This document shows positions 47,765 to 52,513 of a stretch of 64,000 nt of DNA, piece after piece. The DNA is from Bacteroidales bacterium (GTDB lineage: Bacteria; Bacteroidota; Bacteroidia; Bacteroidales; UBA932). A program made the position numbers and the translations under genes. Below the pieces are notes generated by a model. It worked only from the letters and a program-made list of their open reading frames with translations, did not search any database and was not told where the DNA came from. The stretch lies in contig JAFSOA010000017.1 of the NCBI GenBank assembly GCA_017447265.1, forward strand, positions 62,001-126,000, in the 5' to 3' direction. The first letter of the stretch is position 1; the number at the start of each line of letters is the position of its first letter.

Positions 47765-49795
47765 CTAGGCTTTTCGTCCGCTGCGGTCGATCATGCCGGC
47801 CACTTTCTTGCTGAAAGCCTTGTTGGCGATCATGTCCTCGAGGGTGAGGTGCATGCGCCAGCGCCAGTAATGCTTCGGATTGGCCGGGATATTGATGCGT
47901 TCCCCGTCGATGTCCTTCACACGCAGGTCCGTCACCAGCGAGAACCAGTCCTGCAGCGGCAGGATGGTCAGCATGGCCGGCGAATAGAGATGCTCGGCCA
48001 CGATCCATTCGCAAACCTCCAAGGGGCAGTCTTCCCCGTCGTGGTGCTCTCCCCACCAGCCGCGCAGCGTGCTGGTATCGTGGGACCCCGTGGTGCAGAC
48101 GCTCATGTACGGATACTCGGACGGGTTGCCGAGCAGCTGCTTCGGGTCTTTCGGCATGCGCTGCACTTCCAGCGAGAGGATGTGCAGTTCATCGAGCACC
48201 TGCGGCACGCAGGCGGGAATCATGCCCAGGTCTTCGGCGCAGGTCAGCATGTTGGTCGCGCCGATCAGCTCGGGCAGCTTGCGCATGGCCTGCTCGCGCC
48301 AGAAATCCGTGTTGCGGGTATAGAAGAATTCGTCGTAGATGTGATTGAAGGCATCTTTCTCCCACTGCTGCAGGTCTTCGTAGCTGCGGGTATACTGGGC
48401 GCTGATGCGCGGGTGCCACATGCCCTGTTGCACGGGATCTTCCACGAAGAGGACTTCGGTGGGATTGTCGTCGGTATACGGGCGGGCGTGGCGTCCCTCA
48501 TCGAAGGGGAAGCCGCGCCAGCGGAGGTCGTCGGCCGAATACGGCTGCGCCGGGCTGAAGTGGCCCATCAGGCCCGACTTGTGCGGGAGGGGTATCTCCC
48601 AGATACGGAAGAAGCCCAGCACATGGTCGATGCGGTAGGCGTCGAAATACTCGGCCATCTTGCGGAAGCGGCGCTTCCACCAGGCATAGCCGTCCTCGGC
48701 CATGCGGTCCCAGTTGTAGGTCGGGAAGCCCCAGTTCTGGCCGTCCACGGCAAAGGCATCCGGCGGAGCACCCGCCTGTTCGCCCATGTTGAAGTATTGC
48801 GGCTCGGCCCAGGCTTCCACGCTGTGCGGCGTGATGCCGATGGGAATGTCGCCCTTGAGCGCCACACCCTTCGAGCGGGCGTAGTCATGCACCTCGCGTA
48901 GCTGGCGGTCAAGGTGATACTGCACAAAGAAATAATAGTTCATCTCGGCCTTCTTCTCCTCGTAGAGCCGCTCGACCCCGGCCTTACTGTATTTCTTCAG
49001 TTTTTTCCACGCCGAAAAGTCGGCGGTGCCGAACTCGTCGCGGAGCACGCAGAAGGCAGCGTAGGGCATCAGCCACGCCCGGTTCGCCTGGAAGAACGCC
49101 TGAAAGGCCTTGGAGGCCATGGTCCGGGTACCCTTCTGCGAGAAAATGGCACGGGTGTACTGTTCTTTCAAGAGAAACACCTGTTCGTAGCTCAGCTGCG
49201 GCAGCGCGTTGAGCCGGGCGGCTTCCTCTTCGAACGCAGCTTGCTTCTTCGCGTCGCGGAGCGGGCCGATATCCTGCAGGTTCAGGTAGATGGGGTGCAG
49301 GGCCATGATGGAGATGCCGCCGTAGGGATACGAGTCGGTCCAGGTCTTGGTGGAGGTGGTGTCGTTGACCGGCAGCAGCTGCAGCACGGCCTGCCCGGTG
49401 GAGGCAGCCCAGTCGATCATCAGCTTGACATCGAGGAAGTCACCGATACCGGCGCTCTGCTGGCTGCGGAGCGAGAACACGGGGATGGCGGTGCCGGCGT
49501 AGCGGGGATGCTGGCCCGGGAACGTGGTTTCCGTCACCTCATAAGGGTTGCTGCGGTTGAAGCAGTTCTCCCAGGTAAAACTCCCGTCGAGTTCCTTGCG
49601 CAGGAATTTGTATTCGAAGGTCTCGGGCAGTTTTTCGGCGTCGAGATCAATGTGCCAGATGATGCCCTGGGTGGCTGTCATGGGGAGGGCTTTTTTCGGG
49701 TTCCAGGAGCCCAGTTCGGGACAGCTGCCCACGATATACACTTGCTGGCCGTGGGGCATCCACGGGCCGATGGTCTTGATGGTGAGGGTTTCCAT
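47765..49795 (-). CDS. malQ: 4-alpha-glucanotransferase with N-terminal CBM20 (GH77)
   Basis: 676 residues. Residues 1-100 are a starch-binding CBM20 (VYIVGSCPELGSWNPKKALPM). The GH77 barrel carries AYRIDHVLGFFRIWEIP (nucleophile Asp), LTCAEDLGMIP (acid Glu) and TTGSHDTSTLRGWW. Bacteroides MalQ-type proteins usually have two CBM20 domains and are near 890 residues, so this one is shorter. No signal peptide; it disproportionates maltodextrins in the cytoplasm and completes the Sus pathway. The transcript leader is about 180 bases and holds two palindromic repeats. Confidence 0.94.
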   Translation of the reverse strand: METLTIKTIGPWMPHGQQVYIVGSCPELGSWNPKKALPMTATQGIIWHIDLDAEKLPETFEYKFLRKELDGSFTWENCFNRSNPYEVTETTFPGQHPRYAGTAIPVFSLRSQQSAGIGDFLDVKLMIDWAASTGQAVLQLLPVNDTTSTKTWTDSYPYGGISIMALHPIYLNLQDIGPLRDAKKQAAFEEEAARLNALPQLSYEQVFLLKEQYTRAIFSQKGTRTMASKAFQAFFQANRAWLMPYAAFCVLRDEFGTADFSAWKKLKKYSKAGVERLYEEKKAEMNYYFFVQYHLDRQLREVHDYARSKGVALKGDIPIGITPHSVEAWAEPQYFNMGEQAGAPPDAFAVDGQNWGFPTYNWDRMAEDGYAWWKRRFRKMAEYFDAYRIDHVLGFFRIWEIPLPHKSGLMGHFSPAQPYSADDLRWRGFPFDEGRHARPYTDDNPTEVLFVEDPVQQGMWHPRISAQYTRSYEDLQQWEKDAFNHIYDEFFYTRNTDFWREQAMRKLPELIGATNMLTCAEDLGMIPACVPQVLDELHILSLEVQRMPKDPKQLLGNPSEYPYMSVCTTGSHDTSTLRGWWGEHHDGEDCPLEVCEWIVAEHLYSPAMLTILPLQDWFSLVTDLRVKDIDGERINIPANPKHYWRWRMHLTLEDMIANKAFSKKVAGMIDRSGRKA

Positions 49796-49817
49796 ATGAT
49801 GTATTATTTATTGTCAG

Positions 49818-49899
49818 TTGACGCTTCGCGTCGCTCTGGTTTTTGTCCCGCTCGCGAAAAATGCTCGCGGCTCCAAAAACCACCCGCTCCGCTTCGCTT
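49818..49899 (-). repeat. Palindromic element, malQ leader copy
   Basis: Read on the minus strand it contains AGCGGGTGGT, GAGCATTTTT, ACCAGAGC and GCGTCAA in order, the same four blocks as the element inside prmC. The outer arms GGTTTTTG (49838-49845) and CAAAAACC (49874-49881) pair perfectly; the inner stem is imperfect. It lies in the untranslated leader of malQ. Confidence 0.75.
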
Positions 49900-49932
49900 T
49901 TCATCCCATCATGCGGGGTTATACCTGACGTC

Positions 49933-49953
49933 ATGCCGGGCTTGTCCCGGCAT
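49933..49953. repeat. Palindrome ATGCCGGG-CTTGT-CCCGGCAT
   Basis: Perfect 8-base arms around 5 bases. The sequence CGTCATGCCGGGCTTGTCCC is familiar as a dispersed intergenic repeat in many unrelated bacterial genomes. Here it lies between malQ and radA, on the malQ side of the promoters. Confidence 0.7.
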
Positions 49954-49972
49954 CTCATTCGTCTGTAATGTT

Positions 49973-49980
49973 CAAAGATA
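49973..49980 (-). promoter_or_regulatory. Candidate -7 box (TATCTTTG) for malQ
   Basis: Exact TAnnTTTG match on the minus strand, 177 bases upstream of the malQ ATG. It would produce a long, structured leader. Confidence 0.55.
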
Positions 49981-49993
49981 GCGATTTTTTTCG

Positions 49994-50001
49994 TATGTTT
50001 G
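49994..50001 (+). promoter_or_regulatory. Candidate -7 box (TATGTTTG) for radA
   Basis: TAnnTTTG match ending 4 bases before the radA ATG, which points to a leaderless or near-leaderless mRNA. The opposing malQ box is 13 bases away. Confidence 0.5.
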
Positions 50002-50005
50002 TCGT

Positions 50006-51409
50006 ATGGCAACGAAAATCAAAACGGTGTGGTATTGCACGTCGTGCGGAAACGAGAGTGCGAAGTGGATGGGGCGCTGCCCTGCCTGTGGAGAATGGAA
50101 TACGATGGTGGAAGAACCCAAGGCACCGAAGGCCGCTTCCGGCGCGGCAAGCGCGGCTTCGCGTGCCCGGGCCTATATCGATGCGTCCGATGCGAAGCCG
50201 ACCCGCCTGCGCGAGATCGACCTGTCCCGCGACAACCGCTTTTCCGTCGGCATCGGCGAGCTCGACCGGGTGCTGGGCGGCGGCATGGTCGAGGGTTCGA
50301 TGATCCTCATCGGCGGCGAGCCGGGCATCGGAAAATCCACGCTTTCGTTGCAGATTCCCCTCTGCTGCCAGGACCTCAAAACCCTCTACGTGTCGGGCGA
50401 GGAGAGCCCGAAGCAGATCAAGCTGCGCGCCGACCGCCTCGGCGGCAGCCACGACGACTGCTTCATCCTCAGCGAGACCGTCCTGGAGAACATCCTGGCC
50501 CAGGCCCGCGAGATCAGGCCCGCCCTGCTGATCGTCGACTCCATCCAGACCATCTACAGCGAAGCCCTCGACTCTTCGGCGGGCAGCGTGTCGCAGGTCC
50601 GCGAATGCGCTTCAGCGCTGCTGCGTTTCGCCAAGGAGACCGGCACCCCCGTTATCCTCATCGGCCACATCACCAAGGACGGCACCATCGCCGGTCCGAA
50701 GGTACTGGAGCACATCGTCGACGTGGTGCTGCAGTTCGAGGGCGACACCAAAGGCTCCTACCGCATCCTGCGCAGCATCAAGAACCGCTTCGGCTCGACC
50801 GACGAACTGGCTGTCTTCGAGATGACCGGCGCCGGCCTGCGCGAAGTGCGCAATCCCTCGGAGATCCTGATTCCGATGCACCAGGACGACCTGTCCGGCA
50901 TCGCCATCGCAGCCATGATGGACGGCACGCGTCCTTTCCTCATCGAGATCCAGGCCCTGGTCAGTACCGCCGCCTACGGCACGCCGCAGCGTTCCGCCAC
51001 GGGCTTCGACGGGCGCAGGCTCAACATGCTGCTGGCCGTGCTCGAGAAGCGTGCCGGCTTCAAGCTGGCAGCCAAGGACGTGTTCCTCAACATCGCCGGC
51101 GGCCTGCGGGTTTCCGATCCGGCCTGCGACCTGGCCATCGTCGCCTCGATCCTTTCGTCGAATTTCGACCTGTTCATCTCGCCGAAGGTCTGCTTTGCCG
51201 CCGAGGTGGGACTCAGCGGGGAAATCCGTCCCGTCAGCCAGGTGGAACGACGGATCGCCGAAGCCGAAAAACTCGGGTTCGAACAAATCTACATTTCCTC
51301 TTTTAATAAAGAGTCTTCCTTCGCCCGGCGCAAGAAAGCGTCCGCTGGCGGCATCACTGTCACGCCTGTCGCCGACATCGCGGCGCTTTGCCGGAAGCTG
51401 TTTCAATAA
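50006..51409 (+). CDS. radA: DNA repair protein RadA/Sms
   Basis: 467 residues. N-terminal zinc finger CTSCGNESAKWMGRCPAC, Walker A GGEPGIGKSTLS at about 105, the RadA-specific KNRFGSTDE motif, and a C-terminal Lon-like domain with GLSGEIRPV. It is a hexameric helicase that extends branch migration with RecA. Convergent with prmC; the gap holds two palindromic repeats. Confidence 0.96.
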   Translation: MATKIKTVWYCTSCGNESAKWMGRCPACGEWNTMVEEPKAPKAASGAASAASRARAYIDASDAKPTRLREIDLSRDNRFSVGIGELDRVLGGGMVEGSMILIGGEPGIGKSTLSLQIPLCCQDLKTLYVSGEESPKQIKLRADRLGGSHDDCFILSETVLENILAQAREIRPALLIVDSIQTIYSEALDSSAGSVSQVRECASALLRFAKETGTPVILIGHITKDGTIAGPKVLEHIVDVVLQFEGDTKGSYRILRSIKNRFGSTDELAVFEMTGAGLREVRNPSEILIPMHQDDLSGIAIAAMMDGTRPFLIEIQALVSTAAYGTPQRSATGFDGRRLNMLLAVLEKRAGFKLAAKDVFLNIAGGLRVSDPACDLAIVASILSSNFDLFISPKVCFAAEVGLSGEIRPVSQVERRIAEAEKLGFEQIYISSFNKESSFARRKKASAGGITVTPVADIAALCRKLFQ

Positions 51410-51412
51410 GTG

Positions 51413-51444
51413 CCGGCCACGCTGGGGGCTCAAACGGTGGCCGG
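51413..51444. repeat. Palindromic repeat CCGGCCAC-16-GTGGCCGG, copy A
   Basis: Perfect 8-base arms. The loop GCTGGGGGCTCAAACG is shared, inverted, with 46468-46499. It begins 4 bases after the radA stop. Confidence 0.8.
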
Positions 51445-51464
51445 GGACGGTCGGAAACGACTGC

Positions 51465-51494
51465 CGGCCACGCTGGGGGCTTCTGGCGTGGCCG
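51465..51494. repeat. Palindromic repeat CGGCCACGC-12-GCGTGGCCG, copy B
   Basis: Perfect 9-base arms. The left half, GCCGGCCACGCTGGGGGCT, is a direct repeat of copy A, 51 bases earlier. The loop then diverges, and the right arm has changed in step with the left so pairing is kept. Confidence 0.8.
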
Positions 51495-51532
51495 ACGGGT
51501 GACGGACGACGGGTGACGGCCGCGAGGGGAAA

Positions 51533-52513
51533 TCAGCGGATGACGAAGCGGTCGCGGCCGCTGATGTCGGGGACGACGTGGCTGCCGGGGAAGAGTGCGG
51601 CCACTTCGGGGCCGAAGCGCTCGTTGATTTCAAGATAGAGATGGCCGTCGGGGCGCAGCAGCGCCTCGGACCAACGGGCGATGGCGGCATAGAAGCGAAG
51701 CGGATCGTCGTCCGGGACGAACAGCGCCTCGGCCGGCTCGAAATCCTTTACGTTGGGCCGCATCAAGGCACGCTCGCGCTCGCAGACATACGGCGGATTC
51801 GACACGATGACATCGAACTTCGGCAGTCCGGCCGGCGGCGACGCCAGCACGTCGGCCGAAAAGAAAATGGGCTTGGCGCCGCCGACTTTCACCCGTTGCC
51901 GGCAGGCATAGCGAAGGGCCGCTTCCGACAGATCGCAACCGTAGACCATCGCCTCGGGAAACTCGGCCGCCAGCGACCAGGCAATGCAACCCGATCCGGT
52001 GCAGATGTCGAGGATGCTGAAGGGACTGTCATCGTCGTACGGATCCAAAGCGGCATCAGCCGCTAGCGGAGGCCGTGCGGGCCAGCCTTGCGGAATAGCA
52101 GGCTGGAGCGGCGAAGTTAGGGGCGGCGCCTCGTAACTCAGATCATCGATGATGCGCGATACCAGTTCCTCGGTCTCCGGCCGCGGAATCAGGCAACCCT
52201 CGCCCACCTTGAAACGGTGGCCGCAGAACTCCGTGACGCCCAGCACATACTGCAGCGGCCGTCCCGTCGCCAACTCATCTAGAGCGGAGCAGAGCGGGTG
52301 GTATTCCGTCCCAAGAGCATTTTTTCGCTCTTGGGACGGAATACCAGAGCTCAGCGGAGCGTCAATAACGAGATCCGGCTCCGAAACAAACTTATAAGAA
52401 GGAATGTCCGTGTAATGCGCCAGCAGCCGGCAGGCGATGGACTTCGCCTCCGGCTCCGGATACAGCGGCGCGAGCCGGGTTACACACGCGTTGAAAAAAT
52501 CTCGAATCGTCAT
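51533..52513 (-). CDS. prmC: Release factor glutamine methyltransferase, with in-frame palindromic insertions
   Basis: 326 residues against about 280 for the family. IPRPETEELV, DICTGSGCIAWSLA (SAM site) and SNPPYVCERE (catalytic NPPY) are intact, so it is probably functional. It methylates the GGQ glutamine of RF1/RF2. Two segments look inserted: about residues 50-77 (SGIPSQERKNALGTEYH), encoded by a palindromic element, and about 125-157 (proline- and alanine-rich), encoded by a second palindrome-rich stretch. The first lies in the N-terminal substrate-binding domain, the second just before the SAM fold. Downstream of ddl in the same direction. Confidence 0.92.
   Translation of the reverse strand: MTIRDFFNACVTRLAPLYPEPEAKSIACRLLAHYTDIPSYKFVSEPDLVIDAPLSSGIPSQERKNALGTEYHPLCSALDELATGRPLQYVLGVTEFCGHRFKVGEGCLIPRPETEELVSRIIDDLSYEAPPLTSPLQPAIPQGWPARPPLAADAALDPYDDDSPFSILDICTGSGCIAWSLAAEFPEAMVYGCDLSEAALRYACRQRVKVGGAKPIFFSADVLASPPAGLPKFDVIVSNPPYVCERERALMRPNVKDFEPAEALFVPDDDPLRFYAAIARWSEALLRPDGHLYLEINERFGPEVAALFPGSHVVPDISGRDRFVIR
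52049..52132. repeat. Second palindrome-rich insertion inside prmC
   Basis: Contains AGCGGC-4-GCCGCT (52049-52064). It also has nested arms GAGGC (52069-52073) with GCCTC (52128-52132), and CCAGCCT (52082-52088) with AGGCTGG (52100-52106). It encodes a low-complexity, proline-rich segment absent from typical PrmC. Confidence 0.6.
52283..52365 (+). repeat. Palindromic element, copy inside prmC
   Basis: A perfect 19-base inverted repeat, GGTATTCCGTCCCAAGAGC (52300-52318) and its complement (52327-52345), around 8 bases (ATTTTTTC). Flanking blocks AGCGGGTGGT and ACCAGAGC...GCGTCAA match the malQ-leader copy, which lies in the opposite orientation. It is translated as part of prmC. Confidence 0.85.

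Follow-up and report, generated by a model that had tools for sequence, protein, structure and literature searches.

Rickettsia palindromic elements (RPEs), in the part of PMC3733652 drawn on here, are palindromic repeats that lie in frame inside unrelated genes, and intragenic repetitive extragenic palindromes (REPs) are described in the corresponding parts of PMC3733652 and PMC6006769. According to the same part of PMC6006769, a REP and its REP-associated tyrosine transposase (RAYT) are usually marked by their adjacency, and the TnpA-Y1 transposases of subclass 2.6, from Bacteroidetes, are accompanied by atypical genome-repeated structures adjoining their transposase gene. The window analysed here, a 64,000-nt stretch of contig JAFSOA010000017.1 from a Bacteroidales bacterium, carries two copies of a palindromic repeat, termed R1, one between malQ and radA and one translated within prmC. 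R1 is a real, lineage-restricted REP-like family and, as far as the comparison with literature and databases shows, a new one: among open-licence papers, nothing closer to its setting, or to the motif of its larger relative R2, was found than the REPs of the cited parts of PMC3733652 and PMC6006769. The family is patchily present at orthologous sites, its end tags are fixed, and its arms change in step; the step from dispersed to mobile is one that we infer. With a probability of about 0.6, R1 is read as a REP-like mobile DNA repeat, lineage-specific and non-autonomous, whose acting form is a folded single strand.

The R1 family and its covarying arms

R1 is a dispersed repeat of about 87 nt, in which GCGGGTGG is followed by self-complementary arms around a T-rich loop and then by CCAGAGC. 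The two window copies are:

49817..49903, minus strand: R1 copy with a type A arm, carrying the tags GCGGGTGG and CCAGAGC; R1 model score 92.0 bits
52278..52366, plus strand: R1 copy with a private, perfect 20-bp stem; R1 model score 77.9 bits

Both correspond to stretches that the first-pass annotation had recognised as alike (49818-49899, minus; 52283-52365, plus), and a sequence check finds them at those places. With the family model at E up to 1, no third copy appears in the window. Folded on their named strands, the malQ-radA copy reaches -35.5 kcal/mol (z -3.3) and the prmC copy -52.9 kcal/mol (z -10.0), and in neither case does any of 200 dinucleotide shuffles equal the native value.

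The first-pass annotation had staked its reading on further copies in the genome or in relatives, and these are abundant. In the window's own genome, G000 (2.13 Mb, 79% complete), the pattern of shared blocks is matched 8 times and the reversed pattern never, while the tags-only pattern GCGGGTGG-N28-50-CCAGAGC gives 32 matches vs 2 control matches; one of the 32 (C19:53987) has no such hairpin and was discarded by eye. A covariance model built from 29 copies (alignment A3) yields 50 matches in G000 at E up to 0.1. Forty-seven of these score at least 45 bits, all spanning model positions 1-87; the remaining three are weak, and two of them overlap R2 elements. The number of independent loci is slightly below 47, because two R1 pairs (C8:91244-92636 and C9:24394-25786) are identical and identically spaced, reflecting a duplicated region or an assembly overlap.

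Model matches occur in 19 of 40 genomes of the genus and in none of 12 genomes from other genera of the order. A pattern scan of the GTDB species genomes, stricter than the family and run on a set that may leave out the window's own genome, returned at least 46 matches in at least 40 stretches; among those listed, all lie in nine metagenome-assembled genomes of Bacteroidales/Bacteroidia, with the rumen named in three titles and red deer in one. Viral carriage was considered and set aside: the three matches among viral contigs have in common a 32-nt core that lacks a hairpin, and are attributed to chance.

In A3, none of the 29 copies departs from GCGGGTGG, from CCAGAGC or from part of the T run; for the tags this holds by construction, since the copies were picked with the tag pattern. 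The arms vary, and 8 of the 14 consensus pairs are changed on both sides. Arm pairing was measured with the arms anchored on the tags and nothing optimised, over 26 distinct G000 copies (33 of the 47 have both tags intact enough to count, and 14 misfit the pattern). The arms pair at 7.0 of 10 positions on average, vs 4.58 when the 3' arms are re-dealt among copies, with a maximum of 5.42 in 1000 re-dealings. This test replaces a first one (12.3 of 20 vs 7.1), which was flattering because the best-pairing hairpin centre had been chosen for each copy and not in the re-dealt control. The covariation claimed by the first-pass annotation proves little on its two copies alone, but it holds genome-wide. 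Two arm types, GAGCCGCGAGCATTTTT and GCGAAGCGACCTTTTTT, are common, and several private types stand beside them. G010, another genome of the genus, has a common type of its own: among seven copies read, in six of the seven loci fetched, five copies from four loci carry a GGGCCAGGCGC stem, three of them identical and two close.

R1 at orthologous sites and inside genes

The intergenic copy is 21 nt from the malQ start codon, on its upstream side; malQ is its downstream gene and radA its divergent neighbour. The features of this site are:

47765..49795, minus strand: malQ (4-alpha-glucanotransferase), 676 aa; open reading frame (ORF), NCBIfam malQ above cut-off
49929..49956, strand not assigned: CGTC-type REP-like palindrome (CGTCATGCCGGGCTTGTCCCGGCATCTC), found by pattern match, adjoining the R1 copy
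50006..51409, plus strand: radA (DNA repair protein RadA), 467 aa; ORF, NCBIfam sms/RadA above cut-off

The mRNA leader in which the first-pass annotation placed this copy is putative. Across the genus radA is matched in 37 of 40 genomes, and malQ stands divergently beside it in 18 of the 30 loci examined. Of these 18, six carry R1 in the interval that separates the start codons (G000, G001, G049, G047, G010 with two copies, and G017). By eye, G034, G035, G046, G050 and G051 have about 50-70 nt between the genes and no palindrome, and in G038, G048, G039 and G006 a CGTC-type palindrome is the sole one. In G007 and G014 (L344 and L356), the site of R1 upstream of radA is occupied by another long palindrome, which resembles GTAGCCTGTGAAACCCCTTCAC. 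The boundaries of the insertion are not exact here, because the species are only 77-91% alike in radA.

The second window copy is translated in frame within prmC, contributing about 29 codons on the minus strand. Two features of the gene are relevant:

51533..52513, minus strand: prmC/hemK-family glutamine methyltransferase, 326 aa; open ORF with PDB HemK/PrmC matches
52042..52135 (ends approximate), minus strand: second in-frame repeat, unrelated to R1, at residues ~127-157

The frame is open despite the insert, as first annotated, and the stem is indeed perfect, its length being 20 bp and not 19. The protein scores above cut-off for NCBIfam hemK_fam; RF_mod_PrmC gives 182.8 bits, under its cut-off of 199.1, and is split in two stretches. 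PrmC is matched in 39 of 40 genomes of the genus, and 30 loci were aligned. The residues encoded by R1 in the window are missing from most of the 29 other loci; their presence in all PrmC orthologues was the other outcome that would have counted against the first-pass reading.

In G049 prmC an R1 copy (48.4 bits) sits at the same position as the window insert. The arms of the G000 and G049 copies differ at 7 positions, and all 7 changes are compensated (7/7), each copy having its own perfect stem, of 20 bp in G000 and 21 bp in G049. By eye, the window stem occurs in no other sequence among the 48 listed for G000, and the G049 stem is absent from six further copies of its genome, which were read in seven fetched loci out of 31 matches there. 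In G006 prmC the same two tags enclose yet another stem at this site; G007 and G010 apparently have one flank only (by eye), with a score of 16.4 bits for G007. Since G000, G049 and G006 share the site with differing stems, the sequences suggest that the prmC insertion is probably old and that its hairpin was probably rebuilt in place, a reading preferred to repeated insertion of R1 at one place.

The second prmC repeat, which the first-pass annotation passed over, contains GGCCTCCGCTAGCGGCTGATGCCGC at 52050-52074. This core has 11 matches in G000 at up to 2 mismatches and is present in 19 of 40 genomes of the genus; by eye, none of the other aligned PrmC loci shows the repeat. Two PrmC linkers are highly variable across the genus (loci L170-L199), and different repeats, among them apparent translated CGTC-type units (RHSGLDPES, VIPGLTGHL), occupy the same two places.

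Insertion within genes is not confined to prmC. Open frames were listed for 48 G000 copies, a codon-usage coding score serving only to select ORFs for Pfam, and 20 frames were run against Pfam, three of them without a match. Ten G000 copies lie in frame inside genes. These encode an HI0933-like flavoprotein, an aminotransferase, an RsmF-like methyltransferase, a SpoU methyltransferase, two ABC-F proteins, an FGGY kinase, HydF, PrmC and a cobalamin adenosyltransferase. For PrmC the assignment rests on orthologue alignment; for the other nine it rests on Pfam matches, either spanning the copy or flanking it on the two sides, the second Pfam stretch being reported without coordinates for the aminotransferase and SpoU. 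DnaX is likely an eleventh such gene, and further copies near gene ends are possible. In HydF the repeat occupies 28 residues (326-353) vs 6 in the best solved homologue, and the alignments of the FGGY and HI0933 proteins open gaps, of 12 and 8 residues respectively, at the repeat or close to it. The stem of the RsmF copy is paired at 19 of 20 positions. Taken with the conserved tags and the covarying arms, these ten in-frame copies bear out the first-pass proposal of a dispersed palindromic family able to live in genes.

R2, a larger pseudoknotted relative

The tags GCGGGTGG and CCAGAGC also bracket cores of 99-105 nt, which define R2, likewise unnoticed in the first pass. Its fold comprises a closing helix, an H-type pseudoknot and two hairpins. 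The R2 model was built from 13 copies, three of the 16 aligned (L095, L130 and L184) being excluded; it has no match in the window, 21 matches in G000, and matches in 32 of 40 genomes of the genus. Among 393 genomes sampled from the order, R2 is present in 6, from four families (E up to 1e-5, own genome included), which is a lower bound given strict filters and at most 10 candidates scored per genome. Copies are seen at L284, L074, L077, L119, L177, L314 and other loci. Several copies have no tags. At L108 and L265, R2-like copies hold other sequence inside one hairpin; at L108 this sequence contains the GGCCTCCGCTAGCGGCTGATGCCGC core of the second prmC repeat, so that repeats nest.

In an alignment fitted to the structure under test, standard pairs account for 93.8% of the R2 pair cells of 75 distinct copies; the covariation score of 0.536 compares with 0.150 after shuffling and is reached by none of 500 shuffles, and slid structures fall below 50% standard pairs. 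The pseudoknot helix, which lies outside the model, has a mean length of 3.97 bp over 36 distinct cases vs 2.73 when shuffled (maximum 3.22 in 500; 72 of 76 rows parsed). G-T pairs fill 51 of 2097 R2 cells vs 40 of 512 in 24 tRNAs of the same loci, a rarity that fits selection or repair at the level of DNA.

R1 and R2 also occur together. Of the 21 R2 copies in G000, 15 were listed, and four of these have an oppositely oriented R1 at a distance of 19-32 nt; similar R1-R2 pairs can be read from the coordinates in G001, G048 and G050. R2, some copies of which share the R1 tags, is probably mobilised, as a sister module, by the machinery that moves R1. Against Rfam, nine loci searched with 4227 families at gathering thresholds and one R2 copy searched at E up to 5 gave no match; with one R2 copy as query, phages and plasmids gave none either.

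Origin and upkeep of the repeats, and comparison with known systems

If R1 is a mobile single-strand element, its tags would be recognised, at the base of the hairpin in single-stranded DNA, by an enzyme that copies or moves the element, the substrate being perhaps the lagging strand or a replication intermediate. Recognition of the foot would retain the hairpin while leaving its sequence free to drift, and arm-templated repair (quasi-palindrome correction) may help to hold the arms complementary. R1 may insert anywhere, the in-gene copies seen being those that kept the frame and sit where extra residues are tolerated.

Several observations weigh against this mobile reading. The prmC site is common to G000, G049 and G006, where an old insertion with change in place suffices without recent mobility. 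Neither a target-site duplication, which together with terminal inverted repeats marks a miniature inverted-repeat transposable element (MITE), nor an exact boundary of R1 was established. The idea that R1 targets or creates flanking inverted repeats was rejected: over 103 distinct copies, the score for inverted repeats beyond 14 nt stays at the level of chance (8.48 vs 8.23 re-dealt, maximum 8.95), with a few striking cases and none reaching the 9-bp score. G-T pairs make up about 5% of the paired cells of R1 (9 vs 182 Watson-Crick), which is not clearly lower than the 8% of tRNA. Neither R1 nor R2 occurs in the 32 Y1 (RAYT-type) transposase loci examined, out of 68 Y1 matches in the genus; these loci comprise 98,574 bases, with up to ~1.5 kb on each side, and 9 of the 32 come from genomes without R1. 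Finally, G017 (87% complete) carries 8 R1 matches and no Y1 match.

The first alternative retains the covariation but makes it mutational: quasi-palindrome repair templated by the opposite arm, and not selection, would keep the arms matched, and the copies would be inert relics of an old spread. The perfect private stems of the two prmC copies are what such repair would leave, as are the 19 of 20 paired positions in RsmF and the few G-T intermediates in R2. Arm pairing offers no explanation, however, for the tags and the part of the T run that are invariant in A3 (the tags being so by construction), and genome-specific stem types with near-identical copies, as in G010, suggest recent copying. 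As a complete account, inert relics under mutational upkeep are rather unlikely.

A second alternative, in which R1 is a REP mobilised in trans by a Y1 transposase of the same genome (RAYT/TnpA-REP class 2), is unlikely. G000 has four Y1_Tnp genes whose proteins show DHuH and Y---NP motifs (by eye), the 5' tag contains GTGG as do the REP guide sequences given in the cited part of PMC6006769, and Y1 matches occur in 18 of 19 R1-bearing vs 9 of 21 R1-free genomes (Fisher P 0.0006, relatedness ignored; two of the nine, G041 and G042, fall below the Pfam cut-off). A RAYT-type transposase, which the first-pass annotation advised looking for, is nevertheless not supported as a neighbour of the repeat: the four genes adjoin other hairpins (by eye), the 32 Y1 loci examined of 68 matches lack R1 and R2, and G017 has R1 and no Y1 match. 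In addition, every one of the 29 copies allows pairing between the TGG in its tag and CCA, so that GTGG is not a free foot. The hairpins flanking the G000 Y1 genes (L009-L012) are perfect or near-perfect, with a different stem for each gene, and some flanks show CTGAAAATCAG/CTGATAATCAG-like motifs (both by eye).

It is very unlikely that R1 and R2 owe their spread to selection for an RNA function, as structured regulators in the role of leaders, terminators or processing sites. One window copy does precede malQ closely and R2 has a multi-helix pseudoknotted fold, as in many RNAs, but the gene-internal copies, 5 sense and 5 antisense to the element, argue against a function that needs one RNA strand, the T run sits in the loop and not after the stem, so that R1 is no standard terminator, G-T pairs are rare in R2, and the loci searched gave no Rfam match.

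With the mobile, folded-strand reading of R1 retained, a broader and more tentative proposal, somewhat unlikely to hold in full, is that R1 and R2 together represent a single new class of Bacteroidales mobile element in two forms. What moves would be a folded single strand of DNA whose ends are tagged, with a conserved pseudoknot in the case of R2; a not-yet-recognised enzyme would drive it, and conserved proteins would repeatedly gain new in-frame linkers from it. R1 provides an RPE-like system outside Rickettsia, in gut Bacteroidales, with an orthologous stem in which every change is compensated, and the most novel part is R2, a pseudoknotted dispersed element matching no Rfam family. Together they make testable both how a palindrome keeps its fold, by selection or by arm-templated repair, and how repeats enter conserved genes in frame.

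Among the described systems, R1 behaves in genes like the RPEs, likewise lying in frame within unrelated protein genes (10 genes). It belongs to another phylum, wholesale replacement affects the arms between its fixed tags, and the pseudoknotted R2 shares those tags; this comparison is of behaviour, not sequence. With REPs, REPINs and bacterial interspersed mosaic elements (BIMEs), as characterised in the cited parts of PMC3733652 and PMC6006769, R1 shares dispersed hairpins that are both intergenic and intragenic and sometimes form inverted pairs, and with REP guide sequences it shares GTGG. It differs from REPs in being longer (~87 nt), in having a second conserved 3' tag and in lying apart from the Y1 loci examined; two marks of RAYT-served REPs are not seen, namely the unpaired GT[AG]G foot of the GTAG/GTRG type, in place of which R1 has a pairable TGG, and, in the Y1 loci examined, copies that flank the Y1 gene. 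From CGTC REPs it is set apart by the lack of CGTC in its invariant columns (A3), a separate CGTC unit adjoining the malQ-radA copy. The inverted pairs typical of REPINs and BIMEs are found, but as R1-R2 pairs and not as two like units. R2 resembles Rfam RNAs in its covarying helices and H-type pseudoknot and differs in matching none of their families. With the structures of subclass 2.6, as far as the cited part of PMC6006769 describes them, R1 and R2 share the Bacteroidetes host and an atypical fold repeated in the genome and differ in not adjoining the examined Y1 loci; the comparison is by description, and identity with those structures is possible.

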